Source of the DNA: Roseomonas haemaphysalidis
GTDB taxonomy: Bacteria; Pseudomonadota; Alphaproteobacteria; Acetobacterales; Acetobacteraceae
DNA length: 64,000 bases
Assembly (NCBI RefSeq): GCF_017355405.1
Contig: NZ_CP061177.1
Span: 2,401,001-2,465,000 of the forward strand
Direction: 5' to 3'
Position numbers and translations under genes: made by a program. A model generated the notes under the pieces. It was not told the DNA's origin, did not search any database, and saw nothing but the letters and a program-made list of their open reading frames with translations. Positions 5,058-50,688 of the stretch are shown here, one piece after another. Position 1 is the first letter of the stretch; each line of letters begins with the position of its first letter.

Positions 5058-7538
5058 ATGTCCTTCAGCATTACCGGCACCACCTTGTACCGCACCAACA
5101 CCGGCCTGACTGCCGCCGGCGGCGCCGAGGTCTCGGCTTATGATGCCACCCGCAAACTGGTGTTCATCCTGGGGCCGGATGGCGTGGATGCTCTGGACGC
5201 CGCTTCCGGCGCGTTGCGCTTCAGCCTGCCTGGCACCGCCGCCGGCATCACCAGCAGCATCGGTGGCACCAGCGTCGCCGTGAAGGGTGACCAGCTCGCG
5301 GTGGCCTACGAGGGCGCCACCAATGGCCTTCCGGGCCAGGTGGCGCTGTACAAGCTCGACGCCGCCGGAACCGGCGCCACGCTGGCGCAGACCATCCAGG
5401 TGGGCGCCACGCCGGATCAGATCGTCTTCACCCCCGATGGCGGCAAGCTGCTGGTGACGATCGAGGGCCAGCCCTCCGATTACGACACCGCCCAGGTGCC
5501 GGCCGGCACGCTGCGCGACGCGCCCGGCGGTCTTGCCATCGTCGATACCGCCACCTTCGCCACCACCTTCGCCGGCTTCGATACCTTCGACGCGGCGGCG
5601 CTGCGCGACGCCGGCGTCCGCATCAAGGCCGGCGCCACGGCGGCCGAGGATCTGGAGCCGGAATACACCACCATCTCCGCGGACGGCACCAAGGCCTATG
5701 TGACGCTGCAGGAAAACAACGCCATTGCCGTGCTGAATATCGCGACCGGCACCTTCACCGATGTCTTCGCGCTGGGCGCCAAGGACCACTCGATCGCGGG
5801 CTACGGCATGGACCCGTCGGACCGCGACGGCGGCGTGAACATCCGCCAAGTGCCGGTCAAGGGCCTCTACATGCCGGACGGCATCGCCAACTTCGAGGTC
5901 AACGGCAAGACCTACCTGGTCACCGCCAATGAAGGCGACGCGCGTGAATACGGCGCCTATAGCGATACGGCCCGGATCGGCAGCCTGACGCTGGACGAGG
6001 CGAGCTTCGGCGGTGCCGCCGCCGTGGCCGCGCTGAAGGCCAACACGGCGCTCGGCCGGCTGACGGTGTCCAAGGTGGATGGCGACGTCGATGGCGATGG
6101 CGACATCGATGTCCTTTACGCCCTTGGCGGCCGCAGCATGTCCATCTGGGAAGTGGGCGAGGATGGCCTGAAGCAGGTCTATGACTCCGGCGACCTGATG
6201 GAGCGCATCCTGGCGCGCGACTTCCCCGCGCTGCTGGATGACGGCCGCTCGGACGACAAGGGGCCGGAGCCGGAAAGCGTCACCCTCGGTCGGGTGGACG
6301 GCAAGCTCTATGCCTTCGTGGCGCTGGAGCGTTCGGACTCCGTAATGGCCTTCCGCATCGACGCGCCGGATGCCGTGTCCTATGCCGGGCTGGTGCAAAC
6401 CGGCGACGCCCCGGAGGTTGTGACCTTCGTGCCGGCAGCGGATGCGCCCGCCGGCATCGGCGGCCCCATGCTGATCGCACCCAGCGAGGGCGACGGCATC
6501 ACCACCGGCATTCGCCTGAACTTCCCCATCCTGGGGTCCGAGGCCGCGGAGGTGCTGCGCGGCACCGCGGGCAATGACGCCATCGCGGCGGGCGGCGGCG
6601 ATGATCTGATCTTCGGCTCGCGCGGGCAGGACATCGTGCAGGGTGGCGAGGGGCGCGACACGCTGCGCTTCGATGACCTGTCGCTGGGCAATGCCACCCT
6701 TGGGCGCGATGCGGGCGGCGCTGCCGTCAGCCTGTCCTGGGCCGACGCCGCCAGCACCACGACCTTCGCCGGCATCGAGGCGGTGAAGCTGGTGGACAGC
6801 ACCATCGCCTTCACGGGCGACAGCGCCGGCGCACAGGTGGCCGGCCTGTACCGCGCCCTGCTGGGGCGTGAGGCGGATGCCGCCGGGTTGTCATTCTGGG
6901 CTGACCGGCTGGAGGAAGGCGGGCTGGCCGACGTCGCTGGCGGGATGCTGGCGTCCGGCGAAAGCAAGGCGGCGCTGGCCGGCCTGGACACCGGCGCGGT
7001 GGTCGGGCGGTTGTACGAGACCGTGCTCGGCCGCGTCGCTTCCGATGCCGAGCTGGGCTTCTGGCGCGCCCCGGCACAGGCGGACCTCGCGGGCGTTGCC
7101 GCCGCGATCGCCGGCTCGGCCGAGGCGAAGACGGACCCGACCGGCGCGGCGGCGGCCGGCATTGCCACGGTGGATGCCGAGATGGCCTGGATCGCCCACA
7201 GCTTCCAGGGCCTGCTGGGCCGTGCGCCGGAGCTGGCCGGTCTGGCTTCTTTCGATGGCCGGATGGATGCGGGCCTCAGCGAAGCCGGGCTGGTGAGCGC
7301 GATCGCGGCCTCGCAGGAATTCGGCATCCGCACCGCCGGGCTGTCGGACGCCGGCTACGTCGCCTGGCTGTACGAGGGCGTGCTGGGCCGGACGGGCGAT
7401 GCCGAGGGGGCGGCCTTGCATGCCGCCAACCTGCAGGGCGGCATGACGCGCGACGCGCTGGCCTACGACTTCCTGGCCTCGGCGGAAGCGGCGGGCCACC
7501 TGAACGGCATCCTGTCGGACGGCGTTTCCATCCTGTGA
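5058..7538 (+). CDS. Secreted choice-of-anchor I propeller protein with RTX and DUF4214 repeats
   Basis: 826 residues, no Sec signal. Residues 1 to about 480 resemble choice-of-anchor I proteins: a beta-propeller with YMPDGIANFEVNGKTYLVTANEGDAREYG, a calcium-type DVDGDGDIDVL, and GPEPESVTLGRVDGKLYAFVALERSD segments shared with alkaline-phosphatase-like propellers. Residues about 503-536 hold degenerate RTX nonapeptides (GNDAIAAGGGDDLIFGSRGQDIVQGGEGRDT). From about 595 four DUF4214 repeats follow, each centred on LY..LLGR...A.GL..W. RTX repeats and a missing N-terminal signal indicate type I secretion, but no T1SS genes are nearby. The substrate of the propeller is unknown. Confidence 0.8.
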   Translation: MSFSITGTTLYRTNTGLTAAGGAEVSAYDATRKLVFILGPDGVDALDAASGALRFSLPGTAAGITSSIGGTSVAVKGDQLAVAYEGATNGLPGQVALYKLDAAGTGATLAQTIQVGATPDQIVFTPDGGKLLVTIEGQPSDYDTAQVPAGTLRDAPGGLAIVDTATFATTFAGFDTFDAAALRDAGVRIKAGATAAEDLEPEYTTISADGTKAYVTLQENNAIAVLNIATGTFTDVFALGAKDHSIAGYGMDPSDRDGGVNIRQVPVKGLYMPDGIANFEVNGKTYLVTANEGDAREYGAYSDTARIGSLTLDEASFGGAAAVAALKANTALGRLTVSKVDGDVDGDGDIDVLYALGGRSMSIWEVGEDGLKQVYDSGDLMERILARDFPALLDDGRSDDKGPEPESVTLGRVDGKLYAFVALERSDSVMAFRIDAPDAVSYAGLVQTGDAPEVVTFVPAADAPAGIGGPMLIAPSEGDGITTGIRLNFPILGSEAAEVLRGTAGNDAIAAGGGDDLIFGSRGQDIVQGGEGRDTLRFDDLSLGNATLGRDAGGAAVSLSWADAASTTTFAGIEAVKLVDSTIAFTGDSAGAQVAGLYRALLGREADAAGLSFWADRLEEGGLADVAGGMLASGESKAALAGLDTGAVVGRLYETVLGRVASDAELGFWRAPAQADLAGVAAAIAGSAEAKTDPTGAAAAGIATVDAEMAWIAHSFQGLLGRAPELAGLASFDGRMDAGLSEAGLVSAIAASQEFGIRTAGLSDAGYVAWLYEGVLGRTGDAEGAALHAANLQGGMTRDALAYDFLASAEAAGHLNGILSDGVSIL

Positions 7539-38890: not shown

Positions 38891-39928
38891 TCAACGCCCC
38901 CAGGCGGTCAGAAAGCGTTCCAGCAGCCCGCCGATCACCTCGACGTTGTAGCCGCCTTCCTGCACCAGCACGGTCGGCAGGTTGAGCGCCGCCAGCTTCT
39001 CCGCCGCGCGGGCGAAGCCATCGGCCGTGACGCCCAGAAAGCTCAATGGCTCGTGCTCCGAGGCATCGAAGCCCAGCGGGACCACCAGTGCATCGGGGCG
39101 GAAAAGCCGCACCCGCTGCAGCCCCGTGTCGATGGCGGCGAGCCAGGCGTCGTCCGCGCTGCCCTGGCGCAGGGGCAGGTTGGCGTTGCAGCCGGAGCCG
39201 TCCCCCGCGCCGGTTTCCCCGGCATGGCCGACATACCACGGATAATAGCCCGAAGGATCGCCGTGCACGGAGACGGTCAGGACATCGCCGCGGTCCCAGA
39301 AGATGCCCTGCGTGCCGTTGCCATGGTGCGCGTCGATGTCGAAGACCGCGACGCGGGCGGCGCCGGCGTCCCGCAGCCGCTGCGCGGCGAGGGCGCTGTT
39401 GTTGATGTAGCAATGCCCGCCCGCCCGCGCTGCATAGGCATGGTGGCCCGGCGGGCGGCACAATGCGTAGGCGGTGCCGCCCTGCGCCACCGCGTCGGCC
39501 GCGGCCAGCGCCGCGCCGGCGGCACCCGCGGCGGCTTCCCAGGTGCCGTCGCCTATGGGGCAGGCGGTGTCGGCCGTGTACCAGCCGACGCGGCCGATGA
39601 TGGATTCGGGGCACACCGCCCCCTGGGCCAGCATCTCGGGTGTGGGATGCATGTTGGCGACAGCCTCGGGGCCCCGTTCCCGCAATCCGTTCCAGCCGCG
39701 CGAGGCGCTTTCCAGAAAATCGACGTAGCCGGCGTCATGCACCGCCAGCAGCGCCGCCCGCGTCGCGGCGGGCGGCTCGGCCGGTGGCAGGCCCAGCCGG
39801 TGCAGCGCGGACAGCAGCGCGCCCGCCCGCTCCGGCACCTCGAAGTTCGCGCGGACTTGGCCGCGCTGGAGAAAGAAGCGCGGCGTATGCCGCAGCTGGG
39901 CGGGGTGGGCGAAGCTCTGCATGGCCAT
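38891..39928 (-). CDS. Histone deacetylase-family amidohydrolase (acetylpolyamine-type)
   Basis: 345 residues. Zinc deacetylase of the AcuC/AphA/HDAC superfamily: ALCRPPGHHA (active-site His pair), CYINNSALAAQRL, VFDIDAHHGNGTQGIFW (zinc Asp and His), SGCNANLPL, and LGFDASEHEPLSF (second zinc Asp, DASEHDP-like). EGGYNVE is the C-terminal signature. It would remove acetyl from a polyamine, amino acid or similar amide. It is divergent from the oligopeptide-type transporter operon with 88 bases between starts, which suggests, but does not prove, a shared substrate. Confidence 0.88.
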   Translation of the reverse strand: MAMQSFAHPAQLRHTPRFFLQRGQVRANFEVPERAGALLSALHRLGLPPAEPPAATRAALLAVHDAGYVDFLESASRGWNGLRERGPEAVANMHPTPEMLAQGAVCPESIIGRVGWYTADTACPIGDGTWEAAAGAAGAALAAADAVAQGGTAYALCRPPGHHAYAARAGGHCYINNSALAAQRLRDAGAARVAVFDIDAHHGNGTQGIFWDRGDVLTVSVHGDPSGYYPWYVGHAGETGAGDGSGCNANLPLRQGSADDAWLAAIDTGLQRVRLFRPDALVVPLGFDASEHEPLSFLGVTADGFARAAEKLAALNLPTVLVQEGGYNVEVIGGLLERFLTAWGR

Positions 39929-40016
39929 GACGCTAAGATGAAGGGGCGGGCTTGTCGATCCGGTGCAACGAAGGCTAGCGTTCGGGCCAGGGGATTTTTC
40001 CAACGGAGACCGACGT

Positions 40017-41603
40017 ATGTCCATGTCGCGACGCGGCCTGATGGCTGGCGCTGCCGCCTTGCCGGTGCTCTGGCGGATCGAGGATGCCATCGCCCAGGGC
40101 GTGCAGCCCAGGCGCGGCGGCACGCTGAACAGCATCGTCAATCCGGAACCCCCGATCCTTCATGTGGGGATCAACAACCAGGCGCCGACGCTGATCGTCG
40201 GCGGCAAGATCTTCCAGGGCCTGCTCCGCTACGACAGCAAGCTCTCCCCCATGCCGGAGCTCGCGAAGAGCTGGGAGGTGAGCGCCGATGGATTGGAATA
40301 CACCTTCCACCTGCAGCAGAACGTGAAGTTCCACGACGGCGTGCCGATGACCGCGGACGACGTGGTGTTCTCCATCATGAAGTTCCACATGGAGGTTTCG
40401 CCCCGCGCGCGGGGCGTCTTCGCCCGCATCAAGGAAGGCATCGCGGTCGACCCCACGACGGTGAAGTTCGTGCTGTCGGCACCGTTCGAGCCGTTTTTAC
40501 TGATGTTCGACAACACGGTCTCGGCCATCGTGCCGAAGCACCTGTTCGAGGGCACCGACTTCCGCCAGTCGCCGGCGGTGGCCAAGCCGGTCGGCACCGG
40601 GCCGTTCCGGCTCGCCGAATGGCAGCGGGGCAACTTCATCCGGCTGGAGCGCTTCGAGGATTACTGGAAGCCGGGGCAGCCCTATCTGGATGCCATCATC
40701 TACCGCGTCGTGCCCGACAGCCAGAGCCGCCGTCTGGCCCTGGAAAGCGGCCAGGTGCAGCTGACCCAGTCCAACGACATCGAGCCCTTCGACGTGCCGC
40801 AGATGCGCGCGCGCCCGAACCTGGAGGTGCAGACCACCGGCTGGGAATACTTCGGCCCGCTGATGTGGATGGACTTCAATCACCGCGTGAAGCCGCTGGA
40901 CGACGTGCGGGTGCGCCGTGCCCTGACCATGGCGGTGAATCGCGACTTCATCGCGCAGCGTCTGTGGTTCGGCATCGGCAAGCCCGCGACCGGCCCGTTC
41001 CACAGCGCCACGCGGTTCTACGACGGCACCGCCAAGGTGCCGGGCTACGACCTCAATGCCGCCAAGGCGTTGCTGGATGAGGCGGGGCTGAAGCCGAACG
41101 GGCAGGGCGTGCGCTTCAGCATCAAGCATCTGAGCCTGCCGTACGGCGAGGTCTTCACCCGGTTGGGCGAATTCCTGAAGCAATCCTTCCGGCAGGTGGG
41201 CGTGGACCTGCAACTGGAAAGCGTCGATGTGGGCACCTGGTCGCAGCGCACCGCCAACTGGGACTTCGATACCACCATCAACTACCTGTACCAATATGGC
41301 GACCCGACGCTGGGCGTGGAGCGTTCCTACGTTTCCACCAACATCAAGAAGATCCTGTTCTCCAACGTCGCGGGTTATGCGAACCCCGAGGTGGACAAGC
41401 TCTTCGAGCAGGGGCGCGATGCCGCTGACCCGGCAATGCGACAGCAGGCCTTCTCGGCCGTGCAGAAGATCCTGGTGGCCGACATGCCGCTGCTGTGGCT
41501 GATGGAAATGTCCTTCCCCACGATCTACGACCGGAAGCTGAACAAGGTGATCACTTCCGGCTCCGGCGTGCATGCCAGCTTCGACGACGTGTTCCTGGCC
41601 TGA
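40017..41603 (+). CDS. Oligopeptide-type ABC transporter substrate-binding protein (SBP family 5)
   Basis: 528 residues. The signal peptide has an Arg pair (SRRGLMAGAAALPVLWRIEDAIAQ). The SBP_bac_5 body shows LAKSWEVSADGLEYTFHLQQNVKFHDGVPMTADDVVFS, KPVGTGPFRLAEW, FEDYWKPGQPYLDAIIYRVV, and DDVRVRRALTMAVNRD. These proteins bind peptides, nickel complexes or opines. GGAG 9 bases before ATG 40017 decides the start. It heads an operon with two permeases, a double ATPase and four hydrolase or VOC genes. Confidence 0.92.
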   Translation: MSMSRRGLMAGAAALPVLWRIEDAIAQGVQPRRGGTLNSIVNPEPPILHVGINNQAPTLIVGGKIFQGLLRYDSKLSPMPELAKSWEVSADGLEYTFHLQQNVKFHDGVPMTADDVVFSIMKFHMEVSPRARGVFARIKEGIAVDPTTVKFVLSAPFEPFLLMFDNTVSAIVPKHLFEGTDFRQSPAVAKPVGTGPFRLAEWQRGNFIRLERFEDYWKPGQPYLDAIIYRVVPDSQSRRLALESGQVQLTQSNDIEPFDVPQMRARPNLEVQTTGWEYFGPLMWMDFNHRVKPLDDVRVRRALTMAVNRDFIAQRLWFGIGKPATGPFHSATRFYDGTAKVPGYDLNAAKALLDEAGLKPNGQGVRFSIKHLSLPYGEVFTRLGEFLKQSFRQVGVDLQLESVDVGTWSQRTANWDFDTTINYLYQYGDPTLGVERSYVSTNIKKILFSNVAGYANPEVDKLFEQGRDAADPAMRQQAFSAVQKILVADMPLLWLMEMSFPTIYDRKLNKVITSGSGVHASFDDVFLA

Positions 41604-41613
41604 TCGCCGGCGC

Positions 41614-42597
41614 ATGGAACTGTCGCGCTTTCCTGCCTACCTAGCGGGGCGCCTGGTCAAGGCGGCGATCGTGGTGCTCGCGATCGTCGTCTGCAACTTC
41701 CTCCTGATCCACGCCGCGCCGGGGGATCCGGCCAGCATCATCGCGGGCCAGTCCGGCGCGGCGGATGCCCGCTTTCTGGAGCAGCTTCGGGCGCAGTTCG
41801 GGCTGGACCAGCCGCTGTATGTGCAGCTCTGGCTATACCTGAAGGGCGTGCTGACGCTGGACCTCGGCTTCAGCCACCGCCAGCAGGCCAGCGTCGCCTC
41901 GCTGGTGTGGGACCGGCTGCCGGCGACGCTGCTGCTGACGGGCGCCGCCTTTGTTTTCGCGATCGTGCTGGGCGTGACCATGGGCGCGCTGGCGGCGCGG
42001 CGGGTGGGCCGCTGGTCGGACAGCGTCATCACCGTGCTGGCGCTGGCCTTCTACGCCACGCCGCTGTTCTGGGTGGGGCTGATGCTGGTGCTGCTGTTCA
42101 GCGTCACGCTGGAATGGCTGCCCTCCTTCGGCATGATGTCGGTGGGTGTCGAGCTGTCGGGCATCGGCAAGGTGCTGGACGTGGCCAAGCACCTGCTGTT
42201 GCCGGCGCTGACGCTGGGGCTATTCTACGTGGCGGTTTATGCGCGGCTGTCGCGTGCCACCATGCTGGAGGTGGCGGACCAGGACTTCGTGAAAACCGCG
42301 CGCGCCAAGGGCGTGCCGGAAGGGCGCATCCTGCGGCGCCATGTGCTGCGCAACGCCATGCTGCCGGTCATCACCTTCGCCGGCATCCAGGCGGGGCAGC
42401 TGGTGGGCGGATCCATCCTGGTCGAGACGGTGTTCGCCTGGCCCGGCATCGGCCGCCTTGCCTTTGAGGCGCTTTTGGCCCGCGACTATCAGGTGCTGAT
42501 GGGCGTGTTCTTCTGCACCAGCGTCATGGTGGTGCTGTTCAACCTGATCACGGACCTGCTCTACGCCGTGGTCGATCCGCGTGTGGAGGTGTCGTGA
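41614..42597 (+). CDS. DppB/OppB-type ABC transporter permease
   Basis: 327 residues with six membrane helices. It starts with the RLVKAAIVVLAIVVCNFLLIHAAPGDPA segment, then LDLGFSHRQQASVASLVWDRLPATLLLTGAAFVFAIVLG, and the EAA loop DFVKTARAKGVPEGRILRRHVLRNAMLPVITF. The ATG lies 10 bases after the binding-protein stop. It pairs with the DppC-type permease that follows. Confidence 0.92.
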   Translation: MELSRFPAYLAGRLVKAAIVVLAIVVCNFLLIHAAPGDPASIIAGQSGAADARFLEQLRAQFGLDQPLYVQLWLYLKGVLTLDLGFSHRQQASVASLVWDRLPATLLLTGAAFVFAIVLGVTMGALAARRVGRWSDSVITVLALAFYATPLFWVGLMLVLLFSVTLEWLPSFGMMSVGVELSGIGKVLDVAKHLLLPALTLGLFYVAVYARLSRATMLEVADQDFVKTARAKGVPEGRILRRHVLRNAMLPVITFAGIQAGQLVGGSILVETVFAWPGIGRLAFEALLARDYQVLMGVFFCTSVMVVLFNLITDLLYAVVDPRVEVS

Positions 42598-43442
42598 TGC
42601 GCGGCTTCGCACGCAACTTCGCCCGCAACCGCGGTGCGGTGGTGGGGCTGGTTATTCTGCTGCTGGTCGTCATCCTCGCCATCGGCGCCCCCTGGTTCTA
42701 TCCCGGCAGCCCCTGGGACATGGCGGGCATGCCCTTTGCCCCACCGGGCGAGATGGACATGCTGCTCGGCTCTGACAGCCTGGGCCGGGACGTGGCGGCC
42801 GGCATCGCGCATGGCGCGCGGGTGTCTCTGCTGGTCGGTGCCGTGTCCACCGTGGTGGCGCTGGTCATCGGCATCGGGCTCGGCGCGCTGGCCGGCTACC
42901 TGGGCGGCTGGGTGGACGACGTGGTGATGCGCTTCACCGAGTTCTTCCAGACCATCCCCTCCTTCGTGCTGGCCATCCTGCTGGTGGCGATCTTCACGCC
43001 GACCATCTGGTCCATCGTCTTCGCCATCGCCGTGGTGTCCTGGCCGCCGGTGGCCCGCGTGGTGCGCGCGGAGTTCCTGTCGCTGCGGTCGCGGGAGTTC
43101 GTGCAGGCGTCCGAGGTGCTGGGCAAGTCGCGGCTTTCCATCGTCTTCGGGGATATCCTGCCCAACGCGCTGTCGCCCATCGTCGTGCTGTCGTCGCTGA
43201 TGGTGGCGTCCGCGATCCTGCTGGAATCCGCTCTGTCCTTTCTGGGTCTGGGCGATCCGAACCTGATGTCCTGGGGCTTCCTGATCGGCTCCGGCCGCAG
43301 CGTCATCCGCATCGCCTGGTGGATGAGCGTGTTCCCCGGCATCGCCATCTTCCTCACCGTGCTGTCGCTCAACCTGGTGGGCGAAGGGTTGTCGGACGCG
43401 CTGAACCCGCGCTTGGCCCGCGCCCGTGGAGGCAAGCCATGA
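42597..43442 (+). CDS. DppC/OppC-type ABC transporter permease
   Basis: 281 residues, about six membrane helices. It opens FARNFARNRGAVVGLVILLLVVILAIGAPWF and holds LLGSDSLGRDVAAGIAHGARVSLLVG and the EAA loop EFVQASEVLGKSRLSIVFGDILPNALSPIVV. ATG 42597 overlaps the upstream stop (TGATG); a GTG codon just before is also possible. The stop overlaps the ATPase start (ATGA). Confidence 0.92.
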   Translation: MRGFARNFARNRGAVVGLVILLLVVILAIGAPWFYPGSPWDMAGMPFAPPGEMDMLLGSDSLGRDVAAGIAHGARVSLLVGAVSTVVALVIGIGLGALAGYLGGWVDDVVMRFTEFFQTIPSFVLAILLVAIFTPTIWSIVFAIAVVSWPPVARVVRAEFLSLRSREFVQASEVLGKSRLSIVFGDILPNALSPIVVLSSLMVASAILLESALSFLGLGDPNLMSWGFLIGSGRSVIRIAWWMSVFPGIAIFLTVLSLNLVGEGLSDALNPRLARARGGKP

Positions 43443-45046
43443 CCCGCCTGCTGACGGTTGAGAACCTTTCGGTCGCGCTGCCCCAGGGCGCCGACCGGCC
43501 CCATGCGGTGGAAAACCTGTCGCTGCATCTGGTTGCCGGGGAAATCCTTTGCATCGTGGGTGAGAGCGGCTCGGGCAAGTCGATCACCGCCAACACCGTG
43601 ATGGGCCTGCTGCCGAAGCAGCTTCCCGTGACATCCGGGCGCATCACCTTCGAGGGCGAGGAGATCCTGGCGCTGTCCGACGAGGCGCTGCGTTCCCGCC
43701 GCGGCCGCCGCATGGCGATGGTGTTCCAGGAGCCGATGACGGCGCTGAACCCGCTGATGCGGGTGGGCGACCAGATCGCGGAAGCCCTGCAGGTGCACGG
43801 CAAGGGCGCCGAGGCGGCGAGGCGCGTGCCGGAACTGCTGGCGGCGGTGAACCTGCCCGACCCGGCGAGCATCGCCAAGAGCTACCCCTTCCGCCTGTCC
43901 GGCGGCCAGCGGCAGCGCGTGATGATCGCCATGGCGCTGGCGCTGGAGCCCGCGCTGCTGATCGCCGATGAGCCGACCACCGCGCTTGACGTCACGACGC
44001 AGATGCAGATCCTGCGGCTGATGCGCAAAATCCAGTCGCGCCAGGGCATGGGGGTGATGTTTATCACCCATGACTTCGGCGTGGTGGCCGAGATCGCGGA
44101 CCGCGTGGTGGTGATGCAGCATGGCCGCATCGTCGAGCAGGGCACGGCGCAACAGGTGCTGAACGCGCCGCAGCACCCCTACACCAAGGCGCTGATCGCC
44201 GCCGTGCCGCATGGCGACGCCGCGGCGCGGCCAGAGGTATCGAAGACGCCGGTGCTGGAGATGCGCGGCATCGAGAAGACCTATTCCCGCGGCGGCTGGA
44301 TCGGCCCGCGCGCGACGGTGCGCGCCATCCACAGCGCCGATTTCACGCTCTACAAGGGCGAGACGCTGGGGCTGGTCGGTGAATCCGGCTCCGGCAAATC
44401 CACGCTGGCCCGCTGCGTGGTGCGGCTGGTGGAGCCGGAAAAGGGCGAGATCATCTTCGCCGGCGAGGACCTCCGCCCGCTGTCCCGCGCCGGGTGGCTG
44501 CCCTACCGCAAGCGCATCCAGATGGTGTTCCAGGACCCCTACGCCTCGCTGAACCCGCGCCGCAAGGTGGGCGACGCGATCGCCGAGGGCCCGATCACCC
44601 ATGGCGTCGATCCCGCCGAGGCGCGTGCCCGCGCGGTGGAGTTGCTGCGGCTGGTGCAGCTCGACCCTTCGGCCATCGAGCGATACCCGCACGAGTTCAG
44701 CGGCGGGCAGCGCCAGCGCATCGGGCTGGCGCGTGCGCTGGCGATGCAGCCGGAACTGCTGATCGCCGACGAGCCGGTATCCGCGCTCGACGTCTCGGTG
44801 CAGGCTCAGGTGCTGGCGCTGCTGGCGGATATCCGCAAGCGGCTGGGCCTGACCATGCTGTTCATCACCCACGACCTGCGGGTGGCGGCGCAGATCTGCG
44901 ACCGCATCGCCGTCATGCAACGTGGTGCCATCGTGGAGCTCGGGACCACCGAGCAGGTCTTCGGCGCGCCGAAGCACGCCTATACCCGCGCGCTGCTGGA
45001 CAGCATCCCCGGCCAGGGATGGACCCCGCCCGCGCTTTCTGCCTGA
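43439..45046 (+). CDS. Fused double ABC ATPase (DppD-DppF / GsiA-type)
   Basis: 535 residues with two complete ABC domains, each with Walker A GESGSGKS, signature LSGGQRQRV or FSGGQRQRI, Walker [13 protein letters not shown] or [12 protein letters not shown], and the H-loop THD. The halves correspond to DppD (about 1-265) and DppF (about 275-535), fused as in GsiA. The fused form guarantees an equal ratio of both motors. It overlaps the DppC-type permease by ATGA. Confidence 0.94.
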
Positions 45047-45056
45047 AGGATTGATC

Positions 45057-46346
45057 ATGCCTGCTCTCGACCCCGGCGTCCGCCGCGCGATCTTCGATGC
45101 CGTGAAGGCGCTGGAAGGCGAATCCAACGCGGCGCTGGAGCGTCTGGTGCGCTGCCCCTCCACCCTTGGCAACGAGGCCTCGGCGCTGGACGAGATGGCG
45201 CGGAACTACGAGGCGCTGGGGCTGACCGCCCTGCGCATCCCCACCGTGCCGGCGAAGCTGCAGGACGTGCCGGGCTTCTCGCCGCCGCTGATCTCCTACG
45301 AGGGGCGCGACAACGTCGCCGCCGTGCACAAGCCGCGCGAGGCCAAGGGTCGCAGCCTTGTGCTGCAGGGCCATGTGGACGTGGTGCCGGAGGGCGCCGC
45401 CGACCTTTGGGCCACGCCGCCCTATGAGCCCAGCACCCGCGATGGCCGCATGTACGGCCGCGGCGTGGGCGACATGAAGGCCGGCGACATCAGCAATGTC
45501 ATGGCCTTTCGCGCGCTGCAGATGGCCGGGCTTCAGCCGGCCGCCGAGGTGCAGTTCCATTCGGTGATCGAGGAGGAATGCACCGGCAACGGCGCGCTGG
45601 CCTGCATGATGGCGTTGCCGAAATGCGACGCCGCCATCATCCCCGAGCCGGGGCCTGGCTTCGATGCCATCTATTCCGTGGAGGTGGGCGTCGTCTGGGC
45701 CTGGGTCACGCTGACCGGCCGCCCCACCCATGTCCGCAACATGCACGAGGGCATCAACGCCATCGAGGGCGTCTACCTGATCTCCCGCATGTTCAAGGAC
45801 TACGAGGGGGAGATGAACAAGGCTGAGAACGTCCACCCGTCCTTCTTCGGCGTGAATCACCCGGTCAACGTCAACCTCGGCACGCTGGAAGGCGGCGAGT
45901 GGAACAGCTCGGTGCCCACGCGCGCGCGCATCGGCATGCGGGTGGGCGTCATGCTGGGCCGCACGGCACAGGACGTGAAACGGGATATCGAGGCGCTGGT
46001 CGAGCGTGCCCGGCAGGATGAGCGGCTGCGCGGCACCCAGTTGAAGCTGGAGTTCAAGGGCTTCATGGCCGACCCCTGCGAGTTCGACATGCAGTCGCCC
46101 ATCGCGCTGCTGACCAAGAAGCATTTCGCCGAGGCCTCGGGCCGGGAACTGCGGGAATACAAAGTCTCGGCCCTCACCGACGGGCGCTTCTTCACGCTGT
46201 ACCAGGGCACGCCGGTGGCCTGCTTCGGGCCGGAGGCGGATAGTATCCACGGCATTGATGAAAGCGTCAGCCTGGATGGCTTTCACGCCACCACCAGTGC
46301 CATCGCGCTGTCCATGGCCGAGTGGTGCGGGGTCGAGAAGGCATGA
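45057..46346 (+). CDS. M20 family metallohydrolase, ArgE/DapE-like
   Basis: 429 residues. Two-zinc peptidase/deacylase: H106 and D108 in LQGHVDVVPEG, D139 in GRGVGDMKAGD, general base and ligand in IEEECTGNG (about 172-174), and a late GFHATTS His. The lid domain contains GRPTHVRNMHEGINAIEG. ArgE/DapE-type enzymes remove an acetyl or succinyl group from an amino acid, and others are dipeptidases. It follows the transporter ATPase by 10 bases and overlaps the next M20 gene by ATGA. Confidence 0.88.
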   Translation: MPALDPGVRRAIFDAVKALEGESNAALERLVRCPSTLGNEASALDEMARNYEALGLTALRIPTVPAKLQDVPGFSPPLISYEGRDNVAAVHKPREAKGRSLVLQGHVDVVPEGAADLWATPPYEPSTRDGRMYGRGVGDMKAGDISNVMAFRALQMAGLQPAAEVQFHSVIEEECTGNGALACMMALPKCDAAIIPEPGPGFDAIYSVEVGVVWAWVTLTGRPTHVRNMHEGINAIEGVYLISRMFKDYEGEMNKAENVHPSFFGVNHPVNVNLGTLEGGEWNSSVPTRARIGMRVGVMLGRTAQDVKRDIEALVERARQDERLRGTQLKLEFKGFMADPCEFDMQSPIALLTKKHFAEASGRELREYKVSALTDGRFFTLYQGTPVACFGPEADSIHGIDESVSLDGFHATTSAIALSMAEWCGVEKA

Positions 46347-47581
46347 GCAACCTTCCCGTCTCGGGCGCCCGGCTGTGGGACAGTCTGATGGAGATGGCGC
46401 GCATCGGCGGCACCCCCAAGGGCGGCTGCAACCGGCAGACCCTGACGGAGCTGGACGGCGCCGGCCGCGCCCTGCTGCGGCGCTGGGCGGAGGAGGCGGG
46501 CTGCACCCTCAGCGTCGACCGCGTTGGCAACATGGCGCTGCGAAGGGAAGGGCGGGACCCGTCGCGGCCGGCCGTGGCGATCGGCAGCCATCTGGACACC
46601 CAGCCGACAGGTGGCAAGTTCGACGGCGTGCTGGGCGTGCTGGCGGGGCTTGAGGTGCTGCGCGCGCTGCATGATGCGCGCATCGAGACGGAGGCGCCGA
46701 TTGTCCTGGTCAACTGGACCAACGAGGAGGGAGCCCGCTTCTCGCCGCCGATGATGGGCAGCGGCGTGGCCATGGGCCTGTTCACGGAGGAGGAGGTCCT
46801 GGCCAAGCGGGACCCCGCGGGCGCGGTGTTCGGCGAGGAACTGCGCCGCATCGGCTGGCAGGGTGAGGCCGACCCCGCCGGGCTGCAATCGCTCGGCGCC
46901 TATTTCGAGTTGCATATCGAGCAGGGTCCGCTGCTGGAGCGCGAAGGCATCCCGGTCGGCGTGGTGGACCGGGCTTTGGCGCAGGCCTGGTTCGACGTGA
47001 CGGTGACGGGCGAGGATTTCCACGCCGGCGGCGCCATGGCACCCCGCCGCGACGCGCTGGTGGCGGCGTCGCTGCTGGTGCAGGCGGTGGAGGAGATCGC
47101 CATCGCCGAGGCTGGCCGCGGCACGGTGGGGCGCCTGACGCTACGGCCGGACAGCCGCAATGTCGTACCCTCCGAGGCGTGGTTCAGCGTGGACTTCCGC
47201 CATGGCGACGAGGCCGCGCTGGCCCGCATGGGCGCCGCGCTGCGTGCCCGTGCCGCCGAGGTGGCCGCCGCCCGCAAGGTCAGGGCGGAGGTGGCCGACT
47301 TCTGGCACTGCCCGCTGACCCCTTTCGACCCCACGCTGGTGGCCGCCCTGGAAACCGCCGCCCGCGGGCGGGGCCTGAACTATCAGGTGATGCCCACCGG
47401 CATCGGCCATGACGCGGTTTATGTTGCCCGCCGCGTTCCCACCGCCATGATCTTCGTGCCCTGCGAAGGCGGCATCAGCCACAACGAGGCCGAATCCATC
47501 ACCCCCGCCTGGGCCGAGGCGGGACTGGTGGTGCTGGCCGACGCCGTGCTGGCGACCGCCGGCCGTGCCCAACCGGAGTAA
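46343..47581 (+). CDS. M20 family amidase, hydantoinase/carbamoylase type
   Basis: 412 residues. HyuC/AllC/beta-ureidopropionase-type zinc amidase: H83 (AIGSHLDTQPTGGKFDG), D94, E128/E129 (NWTNEEGARF), ELHIEQGPLLE and a C-terminal GISHNEAE. Such enzymes hydrolyse N-carbamoyl amino acids, allantoate or ureidopropionate, releasing ammonia and CO2. This subfamily is distinct from the ArgE/DapE-like M20 encoded just upstream, so two different N-groups may be removed. Start overlaps the upstream stop (ATGA). Confidence 0.88.
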   Translation: MSNLPVSGARLWDSLMEMARIGGTPKGGCNRQTLTELDGAGRALLRRWAEEAGCTLSVDRVGNMALRREGRDPSRPAVAIGSHLDTQPTGGKFDGVLGVLAGLEVLRALHDARIETEAPIVLVNWTNEEGARFSPPMMGSGVAMGLFTEEEVLAKRDPAGAVFGEELRRIGWQGEADPAGLQSLGAYFELHIEQGPLLEREGIPVGVVDRALAQAWFDVTVTGEDFHAGGAMAPRRDALVAASLLVQAVEEIAIAEAGRGTVGRLTLRPDSRNVVPSEAWFSVDFRHGDEAALARMGAALRARAAEVAAARKVRAEVADFWHCPLTPFDPTLVAALETAARGRGLNYQVMPTGIGHDAVYVARRVPTAMIFVPCEGGISHNEAESITPAWAEAGLVVLADAVLATAGRAQPE

Positions 47582-47585
47582 CCGC

Positions 47586-49064
47586 ATGCGCATCGCCATC
47601 GGCGGCTTTCTGCACGAAAGCCATTCCTTCGCTCCCGTCGCCACGGGGTGGGAGGAATTCCGCACCCCGGGCGGCTTTCCCGCCTATCACCGTGGCGCGG
47701 GGCTGTTCGATGTCCTGCGTCCGACGTCCGCCCCCGCGGCCGGTGCGCTGTCGGTGGCGGAGCCGGAGGGCATCGAGCTGGTGCCGCTGTCCTGGTGCTT
47801 CGCCAATCCGGCCGGGCCGGTGACGGAAGAAGCCTTCGAGCGGATCGCCGCCTGCCTGGTGGCGGACCTTGCCGTCGCGGTCGATGCCGGCGGGCTGGAT
47901 GGCGTGTACCTCGACCTGCACGGCGCCATGGTGGCCGAGCAATTCCCGGATGCCGAAGGCGAGCTGTTGCGCCGGGTCCGTGCCGTTGTCGGGCCGGATG
48001 TGCCGATCACCACAAGCCTCGACCCGCATGCCAACGTCACGGCGCTGATGGCGGAAAAGGCGGATGCGCTGGTGCCGTTCCGCACCTATCCGCATGTGGA
48101 CATGAAGGCCGCCGGAGCGCGGGCCATGGAACTGCTGATCGCGCGCATCCGCCGCGGCACGCCCTGGCCGCGCGCCTTCCGGCAGGTGGACTACTGGACC
48201 CCGCTGACCATGCAATGCACCATGGTCTCGCCCATGGCCGACGTGCTGGCGGAGCGTGCCCGGCTGGCCGCCGGCAGCGGCGTGGTGGAACTGGGCTTCT
48301 GCTTCGGCTTTCCCTATGCCGATTTCCCCGGATGCGGCATGGCGATCACCTGCTACGCCGAGGATCAGGCTGCCGCCGATGCGGCCGCCGAAGGGCTGAA
48401 AGCGTATCTGGATGCGCATGAGGCCGATTTCGCGGGCGGCGCCATTCCGGCGGCCGAGGGTGTGGCGCAGGCCGTGGCCCGGGCCGGCGCCGGCGGCCCG
48501 GTCGTGCTGGCCGACACGCAGGACAATCCCGGTGGTGGCGGTCATGGCGACACCACCGGCCTGCTGGCGGAGCTGATCCGCCAGAACGCACCCGCCACGC
48601 TTGGCATCATCAATGACGCGGCCAGCGCCGCTGCCTGCCATGCGGCGGGGCAGGGTGCCGAGATCGCGCTGTCCCTGGGCGGCAGGTCCGACGGCACGCC
48701 GATCGAGGTGCGGGCCAAGGTGCTGCGACTGACCGATGGCCGCTTCACCTGCACGGGGCCGATGAGCGCGGGCAACCCCGCCGACCTTGGCCCCACGGCC
48801 TTGATTGGCATCGGCCCGGTCAAGGTGATCGTTGTCACGCGCAAGATGCAGGCGCACGACCAGGCGCTGTTCCGCCACATCGGCATCGAGCCGGCGGGCG
48901 AGCCGATCCTGGCGCTGAAGTCCAGCGTGCATTTTCGGGCCGATTTCCAGCCCATCGCGCGGGAGGTAATCGTGGTGGCGGCGCCGGGCCCGGTGCTGGC
49001 CGATCCGTCCGGCTTTCCGTTCCAGCATCTGCGGCCCGGCATCCGCACCCGCCCCATGGGCTGA
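47586..49064 (+). CDS. M81 family metallopeptidase (MlrC-like)
   Basis: 492 residues. It begins RIAIGGFLHESHSFAP, the M81 start (GG..HE.N/SF), has DGVYLDLHGAMVAE, ITTSLDPHANV and FRTYPHVDM with the zinc-binding residues, and a C-terminal DUF1485-like domain (ADTQDNPGGGGHGDTTGLLAELI). MlrC of sphingomonads cleaves the linear microcystin tetrapeptide; related genes are common next to peptide transporters and most have unknown substrates. It follows the carbamoylase-like gene by four bases. Confidence 0.88.
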   Translation: MRIAIGGFLHESHSFAPVATGWEEFRTPGGFPAYHRGAGLFDVLRPTSAPAAGALSVAEPEGIELVPLSWCFANPAGPVTEEAFERIAACLVADLAVAVDAGGLDGVYLDLHGAMVAEQFPDAEGELLRRVRAVVGPDVPITTSLDPHANVTALMAEKADALVPFRTYPHVDMKAAGARAMELLIARIRRGTPWPRAFRQVDYWTPLTMQCTMVSPMADVLAERARLAAGSGVVELGFCFGFPYADFPGCGMAITCYAEDQAAADAAAEGLKAYLDAHEADFAGGAIPAAEGVAQAVARAGAGGPVVLADTQDNPGGGGHGDTTGLLAELIRQNAPATLGIINDAASAAACHAAGQGAEIALSLGGRSDGTPIEVRAKVLRLTDGRFTCTGPMSAGNPADLGPTALIGIGPVKVIVVTRKMQAHDQALFRHIGIEPAGEPILALKSSVHFRADFQPIAREVIVVAAPGPVLADPSGFPFQHLRPGIRTRPMG

Positions 49065-49071
49065 ACGCCGC

Positions 49072-49491
49072 ATGCTGCCGATGTTCAGCCATGTCACCCT
49101 GGGCACCGGCGACTATGCGGCGTCGGTGCGCTTTTACCGCGCGCTGCTGGCACCGCTTGGCTTGGAATGTTTCGAGGACGACACCGCGTCCGGCTGGGCG
49201 GGTTGGAAGCGGCCGGGGCAGGCCGCCGAATTCTATATCTGCCCGCCCTTCAACGGCGCGCCCGCCACGGCGGGCAACGGCACCATGGTGGCCTTTCTGG
49301 CGCCGGACCCGGACACGGTGGATGCGGCTTATGCCGCAGGCATTGCCGCCGGCGGAACCGATGACGGTCCGCCGGGACCGCGCCCAATCTATAACGATGC
49401 GTATTACGGGGCCTACCTCCGCGACCCGGACGGCAACAAGGTCGCGCTATGCCGGCGCGGGGATATCATGATACCACCGGCCGCTCCGTAG
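49072..49491 (+). CDS. VOC (glyoxalase/bleomycin resistance) family protein
   Basis: 139 residues. The vicinal-oxygen-chelate fold shows FSHVTLGTGDYAASVRFYRALLAPLGL at the start and YNDAYYGAYLRDPDGNKVALCRR at the end, with an H near the start and a Glu/Asp in the usual metal positions. Typical for the lone VOC proteins whose substrates are unknown. It starts 7 bases after the M81 gene and is probably the last gene of the transporter-hydrolase operon. Confidence 0.85.
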   Translation: MLPMFSHVTLGTGDYAASVRFYRALLAPLGLECFEDDTASGWAGWKRPGQAAEFYICPPFNGAPATAGNGTMVAFLAPDPDTVDAAYAAGIAAGGTDDGPPGPRPIYNDAYYGAYLRDPDGNKVALCRRGDIMIPPAAP

Positions 49492-49590: not shown

Positions 49591-50688
49591 ATGGGCAAGT
49601 CGCTGTCCGCCTACCTAGATCTCCTGCGCTTCCTCGCTGCAATGATCGTATTCCTGGGTCACTTGGCAGGAGCTCGCTTTACGGCAGGGATCTTCTGGCA
49701 ACTTTCCAATTACATGGATGAGGCCGTCACAATCTTCTTTGTGATCTCCGGCTTCGTTATCGGTTATGTCGTTCTTGGGCGGGGTGAGGATCGAGACGGG
49801 TTTGTCGTCGCCCGCGTCAGCCGCATCGTGTCCGTGGCCATTCCCGCGCTCATCGCGACAGCCTTTCTGGATGCAGCCGGACAGGCAATCCGGCCAGAAC
49901 TTTATTCGGCTGACTGGGGGTTCTCGAATGAGCACCCTTTTTTACAGTATCTTGGGTCTCTGCTTTTTTTGAATCGGATCTGGCATCTCAATCTCGATGT
50001 GGGATCGAATTTACCGTATTGGTCACTAAATTACGAAGTCTGGTACTATATCCTTTTTGGCGTTGCCGCCTTTGCTCGCAGCGCAACACGCTGGATCGGG
50101 GTACCCATAGCGGCCGCCATCTGCGGGCCAGAGATCCTGGTCTTGTTCCCCGTATGGCTTTTCGGCGTCGGCGCTTACGCCATTGTTGCATCCAATCGGA
50201 TTGGCCCGCGCACCGGGATGGCATTGTTCGCCATGAGTATCGTGGCTTTCATCACATATGATGTTGCCGGTGGTCGCGCCGCACTTGGTTTGCCGTTGAT
50301 CCCCGGCTTGGTGAATCGCGCTGACGCTTTGCACGACTATGTCGTCGGCATCTTGTTCACCGCCAATCTGATCGGCTTCGCGGCCTCTGCGCCGGTACTT
50401 GGGCGCTTTATTCTGCCGATATCCCGCCCAGTGCGCTGGGCCGCTGGCGCTACCTTTACGATCTATCTTTTCCACCTACCGGTGGCGCAGTTTTTGACCA
50501 CCATCCTGCCCTGGCCCCCCACCAGCTGGGCGACCAGGATCATCCTCCTCTGCGGCTCGACGATCATCCTCTTCTTGATCGCTGAAGTCACCGAACGGCG
50601 GAAGGATGATTGGCGGCCTGTGGGAGTGGCCGTGCTGTCACTCATTCGGGGCAGACGAGCCGCCAGCCCCCGAGCCGATGCTCCCTAA
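49591..50688 (+). CDS. Acyltransferase family 3 membrane protein (O-acetyltransferase)
   Basis: 365 residues, about ten membrane helices. It starts SLSAYLDLLRFLAAMIVFLGHLAG, with the family's R-F-L-A-A and catalytic His, then ITIFFVISGFVIGYVV and the NLPYWSLNYEVWYYILFG segment with the conserved W-SL-E-YY pattern. Such proteins O-acetylate cell-surface sugars (OAfO, exopolysaccharide, peptidoglycan). Base use differs from its neighbours: many A/T third positions and T-rich runs near 49925-50060, a sign of recent acquisition. No other polysaccharide genes adjoin it. Confidence 0.85.
   Translation: MGKSLSAYLDLLRFLAAMIVFLGHLAGARFTAGIFWQLSNYMDEAVTIFFVISGFVIGYVVLGRGEDRDGFVVARVSRIVSVAIPALIATAFLDAAGQAIRPELYSADWGFSNEHPFLQYLGSLLFLNRIWHLNLDVGSNLPYWSLNYEVWYYILFGVAAFARSATRWIGVPIAAAICGPEILVLFPVWLFGVGAYAIVASNRIGPRTGMALFAMSIVAFITYDVAGGRAALGLPLIPGLVNRADALHDYVVGILFTANLIGFAASAPVLGRFILPISRPVRWAAGATFTIYLFHLPVAQFLTTILPWPPTSWATRIILLCGSTIILFLIAEVTERRKDDWRPVGVAVLSLIRGRRAASPRADAP

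Follow-up and report, generated by a model that had tools for sequence, protein, structure and literature searches.

Why would a bacterium keep a peptide-type importer side by side with several hydrolases, and do these enzymes act together on one imported compound? The question is raised by a gene cluster at positions 38,891 to 49,491 of a 64,000-nucleotide stretch of the Roseomonas haemaphysalidis genome (contig NZ_CP061177.1, positions 2,401,001 to 2,465,000), which as a whole we call the window. In this cluster, an Opp/Dpp-type importer is followed by two M20-family enzymes (M20D and M20C), an M81 hydrolase, and a VOC protein, and an HDAC-fold enzyme is encoded divergently. A first-pass annotation had proposed that the set imports a single compound bearing several amide groups and takes it apart in order. 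We find that the neighbourhood is real, conserved, and modular, and we give a probability of roughly one half to the reading that it represents, in its Roseomonas-group form, a modular cluster for the salvage of small N-acylated amines or amino acids. For many bacterial members of the HDAC family no natural substrate is known. A cluster in which HDAC-fold and M81 enzymes are joined to amidases and an importer provides a direct route toward one, and would further reveal how a hydrolase that otherwise stands alone, such as M81, enters a catabolic operon. No description of this gene set was found among the titles and abstract beginnings in one open-access full-text library.

Gene content and layout

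All of the genes named in the first-pass annotation are present with the families given there, as judged by Pfam and NCBIfam, and are listed with coordinates from their likely starts. The open reading frame (ORF) caller picks some false frames; its use was in detecting neighbours that recur and in selecting which proteins to run against Pfam or NCBIfam.

38891..39928, minus strand: HDAC-fold (acetylpolyamine amidohydrolase-like) zinc deacylase, 345 amino acids (Pfam Hist_deacetyl, 4.8e-74)
39929..40016, no strand: divergent control region, 88 bases, with a conserved TTGTC(G/C)AT ... TAGC element (alignment of relatives)
40017..41603, plus strand: solute-binding protein (SBP), Opp/Dpp family 5 (Pfam SBP_bac_5, 2.6e-88)
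41614..42597, plus strand: permease, DppB/OppB type (Pfam BPD_transp_1, 1.1e-47)
42594..43442, plus strand: permease, DppC/OppC type (Pfam BPD_transp_1, 6e-34, and OppC_N)
43439..45046, plus strand: fused two-domain ABC ATPase, GsiA/YejF-like layout (Pfam ABC_tran in two stretches, 2.4e-64)
45057..46346, plus strand: M20D, ArgE/DapE-family deacylase (NCBIfam PRK06837; PDB 3pfo)
46343..47581, plus strand: M20C, hydantoinase/carbamoylase-family amidase (TIGR01879; PRK09290.1-3; PDB 5thw)
47586..49064, plus strand: M81 (MlrC-like) metallohydrolase (Pfam DUF1485, 3.1e-89; MlrC_C, 9.5e-57)
49072..49491, plus strand: VOC/glyoxalase-fold protein, accessory (Pfam Glyoxalase, 2.6e-11)

From SBP to VOC, the plus-strand genes overlap or lie within 10 bases of one another (intergenic gaps of -4 to +10), and the HDAC gene diverges across 88 bases, as had been described. 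The checked catalytic residues are present in all four hydrolases (HDAC, M20C, M20D, and M81), which are intact as far as can be read from sequence. Each of the two M20 enzymes passed two NCBIfam subfamily cut-offs, the other two hydrolases passed none, and no equivalog or exception cut-off was reached by any of the four, so the bonds that had been assigned to them (acetyl, acyl, carbamoyl) are not fixed by the family names.

Conservation among close relatives

Comparison was made with 80 M81 loci, the best 80 of 184 that were confirmed and named, with one genome per species, and a gene was counted as present when it exceeded fixed identity limits and over 25% of the query was covered. Among named sequences, the window M81 is matched best, at 82–85% identity, by those of Roseomonas, Pseudoroseomonas, and an Acetobacteraceae strain. 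HDAC was present in 67 of the 80 loci, M20D in 67, and M20C in 70, and all three occurred together in 64; the grouping is not peculiar to one strain, and the outcome that the first-pass annotation had named as refuting, co-occurrence confined to this strain, did not arise. The gene order recurs in relatives with median gaps of 11–115 bases, M20D and M20C being no more than 300 bases apart in 63/67 loci and M20C and M81 in 58/70. Gene distances also correlate over all loci (Spearman 0.70–0.92), much of which shared species ancestry alone would give. For distances, the tree, and residues, a gene was used if one tblastn piece spanned 70% or more of the query above fixed identity limits; genes that are split or incomplete, the HDAC of locus L043 among them, thereby fall out of the distance and tree sets.

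The importer is the changeable part of this neighbourhood. It is complete in 29 of the 80 loci and missing in 51, of which 37 retain HDAC, M20D, and M20C. On a 68-locus tree built by a quick method from M20D, M20C, and M81, importer presence changed at least ten times while the enzymes remained, a count that does not distinguish gain from loss. Three loci without the importer (L034, L036, and L045) have well-supported sisters that possess it. In both L034 and L036, M20D is now directly preceded by the element known from the divergent gap, and in L034, from a metagenome-assembled genome, short ATPase-like pieces lie within a 491-base gap. This presents the picture of an importer deleted behind a retained control region; L045 has no whole element. 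Since the importer can be missing in relatives while the enzymes remain, these seem not to depend on the window-type importer alone, and the many relatives that retain the enzymes in this state make it probable that they are also useful without it. Elsewhere, in L197 (positions 5129–6140, with M81 turned to the plus strand), partial ATPase-like pieces lie between HDAC and M20D, the rest of the importer being absent; these are possibly an importer remnant.

Relocation of the importer, where the locus lacks it, was looked for among 200 genomes of the order. Hand counts gave M81 at 55% identity or more in 62 and the SBP at 58% or more in 28, only the seven best SBP candidates per genome being scored, so that misses are possible in the latter figure. 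No close SBP was seen in two genomes of the same genus (G194, with no match at E 1e-120, and G034, with a best match of 42%). In four genomes (G105, G022, G197, and G161), the SBP and M81 lie on different contigs, which indicates that relocation or a paralogue also occurs.

The divergent gap between HDAC and SBP carries a sequence common to relatives, TTGTC(G/C)AT followed by TAGC, with 16 bases between them in the window. With a spacing of 14–22 bases, this pattern is found in 25 of 27 HDAC–SBP gaps, which span 80–117 bases, and in 3 of 37 HDAC–M20D gaps, while the complete 1.62 Mb yields 30 plus-strand matches; the pattern was derived from the same loci in which it was counted, and the count is descriptive. 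A generic sigma-70 scan found one promoter-like site in the cluster, where 0.9 were expected, and it does not lie at the conserved element. The element may represent divergent promoters.

Grouping outside the family

HDAC, M20 enzymes, and the importer are also grouped, in varying subsets, in some other Alphaproteobacteria and in one named betaproteobacterium. Hand counts over 289 genomes of the class used strict E-value limits. Outside the family, 59 genomes hold both HDAC and M20C, and in 8 of these (6 genera) the two are no more than 5 kb apart; 29 hold both HDAC and M20D, with a distance of at most 10 kb in 8 (7 genera). For each pairing, random placement in genomes of ~4.5 Mb would give about 0.1 by a rough estimate. 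In 40 stretches centred on HDAC, the importer was found in 8, M20D in 4, M20C in 5, and at least one of these in 14. Six of the 40 had been chosen for an M20 gene already seen near by; without them, the counts are 5/34 for the importer, 0/34 for M20D, 3/34 for M20C, and 8/34 for at least one. A further locus, L235, which was fetched for its M20 genes, holds HDAC, M20C, the importer, and M20D.

Ten annotated plasmid regions, which we chose from hit lists, show what these sister clusters look like, and six contain importer and HDAC together. The Azospirillum brasilense plasmid carries M20D, the importer, a 2-dehydropantoate-2-reductase-like gene, M20C, HDAC, a thiamine diphosphate enzyme, and BKACE, and that of Skermanella rosea a class II aldolase, the importer, a reductase, HDAC, and M20D. 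On the plasmid of a Comamonadaceae bacterium, an aldolase, the importer, a glyoxylate/hydroxypyruvate reductase, a class III aminotransferase, HDAC, M20C, and GntR are followed by a second HDAC, an APH-type phosphotransferase, and a second class III enzyme. Shorter sets occur in Pseudosulfitobacter (aminotransferase, HDAC, GntR, aldolase, importer), Chelatococcus daeguensis (importer, HDAC, GntR, M20C), and Nitratireductor (aldolase, importer, M20D, dehydrogenase, HDAC, GntR). Overall, the sister clusters carry a class III aminotransferase, a GhrA-like dehydrogenase, a ketopantoate-type reductase, a class II aldolase, and a GntR regulator. These companions are absent from the window cluster, and in the sister clusters they point to a freed amine that would be transaminated and an oxo acid that would be reduced.

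In two of the sister clusters, a phosphotransferase gene adjoins a gene for a class III pyridoxal phosphate enzyme (L308, 19045–21001; L310, 3838–6218), a pair that may be reminiscent of hydroxylysine or ethanolamine phosphate lyase routes.

M81 as a local recruit

M81 relatives at 40–51% identity were followed in 39 stretches from other alphaproteobacterial families, reaching up to ~9 kb per side, several of them shortened by contig ends. In these 39, neither HDAC nor the ArgE-like M20 (M20D) was found, and M20C gave one weak match. The commonest neighbours, present in up to 16/39, resemble xthA, ilvD, erpA, valS, a dGTPase-like gene, and argS (named by eye from translations). In these Alphaproteobacteria (L152–L190), M81 of this clade may therefore have an ancient and general function. 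M81 is a local recruit, joined to the set in the Acetobacteraceae. A link between M81 and importers outside the family is not nil, as a Dpp-type importer adjoins M81 in 4 of the 39 stretches (L167, L176, L186, and L190), and in one locus, L271, HDAC, the importer, and M20D are followed by an M81 of another subfamily, 32% identical.

M81 was also considered as the organising gene of the set and was rejected in this role, its relatives standing apart from HDAC and M20D in other families. Among the 80 close loci, nine have M81 without any other cluster enzyme (L065, L075, L080, L082, L089, L092, L094, L097, and L107), and in all nine M81 is immediately preceded by an ORF of sequence cluster c23, for which the representative, in L094, encodes a D-2-hydroxyacid dehydrogenase.

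Two possible readings: a modular salvage cluster or general amide scavenging

In the salvage reading, a small compound of peptide-like or N-acyl nature would enter through the importer, a terminal amine would be freed by the HDAC-fold enzyme, and M20C would cut an amide beside a carboxylate, as expected from the conserved family Arg and Asn that it retains. M20D and M81 would cleave the remaining acyl or peptide links. In the sister clusters, the class III aminotransferase would then act on the freed amine, and a reductase of the 2-hydroxyacid or ketopantoate type on the oxo acid so formed. More tentatively, at somewhat less than even odds, the whole may be a modular catabolic pathway of Proteobacteria that has yet to be described. 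In it, a separate subgroup of HDAC-fold enzymes (without an acidic polyamine-contact residue, and with PLS) would be the entry deacylase for a non-polyamine metabolite, with its own Opp/Dpp-type importer and two M20 amidases, and to which M81 was recruited in the Acetobacteraceae from a stand-alone gene.

Several observations weigh against the salvage reading. By Pfam, the aminotransferases, reductases, and regulators that accompany the sister clusters have no counterpart in the window cluster itself. Of the 40 HDAC-centred stretches, 26 have neither importer, M20D, nor M20C, and 4 of the 10 plasmid regions pair the importer with other enzymes and no HDAC. In the plasmid collection at E 1e-60, 331 records match the SBP and 35 match HDAC, which makes importer relatives much more frequent than importer–HDAC pairs. 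Moreover, HDAC and SBP distances are uncorrelated outside the family (Spearman 0.08, reached by 143/500 shuffles, n=15), which points to module shuffling; other gene pairs outside the family gave Spearman values of 0.40–0.89, reached by 10–25 of 500 shuffles with 5–10 rows each.

The first-pass interpretation is borne out in part: the genes form a conserved neighbourhood, but a single multi-amide compound dismantled in order is not supported as stated. The importer and M81 are both optional, the latter being found with the other enzymes only in the family (L271 excepted), distances of HDAC and of SBP vary independently outside it, and the sister clusters mix and match. An order of cuts is not readable from sequence.

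The most serious rival is a general amide-scavenging operon, in which each hydrolase has its own substrate and the genes are grouped for nitrogen or carbon recycling, with no single imported compound. The mixing and matching of sister clusters would fit such an operon, as would the 37 loci that keep HDAC, M20D, and M20C without an importer, the tandem extra M20C copies of some relatives, and the separation of M81 from HDAC and M20D in 39/39 other-family stretches, up to 16 of which share the same housekeeping neighbours. However, it does not account well for the tight spacing and fixed order over most of the 80 loci, nor for an HDAC repeatedly paired with M20C or M20D across six and seven genera outside the family, and we consider it rather unlikely.

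The HDAC-fold enzyme and acetylpolyamines

The best PDB match of the HDAC-fold enzyme is 3men (1.9e-88); M. ramosa ApaH matches at 2.4e-75, and the enzyme has no NCBIfam match. With the acetylpolyamine amidohydrolases (cluster 4 deacylases such as M. ramosa ApaH and PsApaH), it shares the HDAC fold, the catalytic and zinc residues, and the lack of a Glu gatekeeper (PEG of HDAC10), and the loop ahead of the active site aligns without a large gap. The catalytic HH, the zinc D-H-D, and Tyr are kept in 84/84 linked copies. PMC11532494 reports that Glu106 contacts the polyamine in M. ramosa ApaH and that PsApaH has His there. In contrast, the equivalent residue of the window enzyme is Ile111, and across all 84 linked copies the position is Ile, Val, Leu, Thr, Ala, Gly, or Phe (Ile or Val in 75), and acidic or His in none. 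In the PIS motif, Leu replaces Ile in 82/84 copies, with Ile in the other 2, and the window enzyme reads PLS. The contact position and the linkage to amidases and a peptide-type importer distinguish the window-type enzyme from cluster 4 deacylases, and the Leu of the motif may do so as well.

Plain acetylpolyamine use, in which the importer would bring in acetylated polyamines for the HDAC-fold enzyme to deacetylate, is made doubtful by the missing acidic contact residue in all linked copies. The closest solved relatives are acetylpolyamine amidohydrolases, and class III aminotransferases adjoin HDAC in sister clusters, but the importer is of the Opp/Dpp type and the M20 and M81 enzymes would be left without a role; we regard this explanation as improbable. 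The enzyme may act as a deacylase of the acetylpolyamine amidohydrolase fold, and it departs from the polyamine enzymes in one tested feature.

The M20 enzymes and a ureide route

M20D exceeds the NCBIfam subfamily cut-offs of PRK06837 (437.2 bits vs 376) and TIGR01910 (226.9 vs 217.6), matches PDB 3pfo at 3.9e-73, and has its checked metal and base residues identical in 78/78 copies. It stays under the equivalog cut-offs for acetylornithine deacetylase and for DapE proper (AcOrn-deacetyl 89.4 vs 297.7; dapE_proteo 75.2 vs 361.8). M20C exceeds TIGR01879 (371.9 vs 204) and PRK09290.1-3 (550.2 vs 452) and matches PDB 5thw at 3.6e-126, and its metal ligands, base, Asn272, and Arg285 are identical in 77/77 copies. 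The equivalog scores of M20C stay under the cut-offs for allantoate deiminase AllC (219.7 vs 597.75) and ErtE (316.7 vs 520). The checked M20 residues presumably have the roles known from their families.

Subfamily cut-offs, metal ligands, and the conserved Asn and Arg place M20C with the hydantoinase/carbamoylase M20 family (AmaB/HyuC, beta-ureidopropionase), from which it differs in reaching no equivalog cut-off and in having no hydantoinase partner in the window cluster. This likeness, including that to N-carbamoyl-amino-acid and N-carbamoyl-beta-alanine hydrolases of known structure, would suit a ureide or hydantoin route in which M20C strips the carbamoyl group from a ureido acid derived from hydantoin, pyrimidine, or allantoin. 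Yet Pfam detects no hydantoinase or dihydropyrimidinase among the cluster genes, and the allantoate, ErtE, and other equivalog scores fall short; such a route is even less probable than acetylpolyamine use.

Additional M20C copies, 50–58% identical to the window copy, adjoin the closer copy inside the cluster in 11 loci (L044, L054, L056, L060, L066, L072, L076, L084, L086, L090, and L099).

M81 and microcystin breakdown

To our knowledge, microcystin breakdown is the sole studied activity of M81 enzymes. The window M81 matches PDB 3iuu (7.6e-57) and microcystinase C, 7ylq (5e-49). PMC12474180 names Glu56, His150, Asp184, His186, and His208 as the MlrC residues around zinc, and all five are present in the window M81 and identical in 81/81 copies. 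The window enzyme thus resembles MlrC in its Pfam family and active centre, and differs in lying far under the NCBIfam MlrC cut-off (175.2 vs 999) and in the absence of mlrABD-type partner families from the cluster by Pfam, the rest of the genome not having been searched for mlrA, B, and D. A role in degrading a microcystin-like peptide, cyclic or otherwise unusual, in which M81 would take the part of MlrC, would agree with those five residues and the peptide-type importer, but the low MlrC score, a cluster without the families described for MlrA, MlrB, and MlrD, and the separation of M81 from the other enzymes outside the family make it very improbable.

Importer type and accessory genes

The order SBP, permease, permease, fused ATPase is that of the Gsi/Yej/Dpp peptide importers. 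The window importer differs in that its SBP and permeases reach no NCBIfam cut-off, and in that, across the ten plasmid regions, the amidases or deacylases adjoining importers of its type are not always of the same kind. The Gsi equivalog scores were all under their cut-offs (GsiB 167.7 vs 594, GsiA 550.6 vs 1077, GsiC 246.5 vs 463, and GsiD 192.6 vs 484). The fused ATPase stays under the cut-offs of the two-domain models PRK15134 and PRK10261, and it exceeds some single-domain models (NikD, NikE, CntD, and CntF) as a sum over its two domains. Read by eye, the SBP has a twin-arginine-like N terminus. The window genome also encodes a second binding protein, 62% identical (G000:C1:1945873-1947456, L211), with no relatives of the importer permeases or ATPase within ~9 kb.

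At the other end of the cluster, VOC is present in 14/80 relatives, with at least five changes on the tree, and the next gene, an acyltransferase by Pfam (49591–50688), in 1/80; we treat both as accessory. Behind the HDAC gene of the window lies a yifB-like gene (named by eye). In L034–L113, an M19-type membrane dipeptidase gene that is absent from the window cluster is found between the yifB-like gene and HDAC; it adjoins HDAC in 30 of the 80 relatives (Pfam on one representative) and is present in 28 of the 68 tree loci, with at least seven changes.

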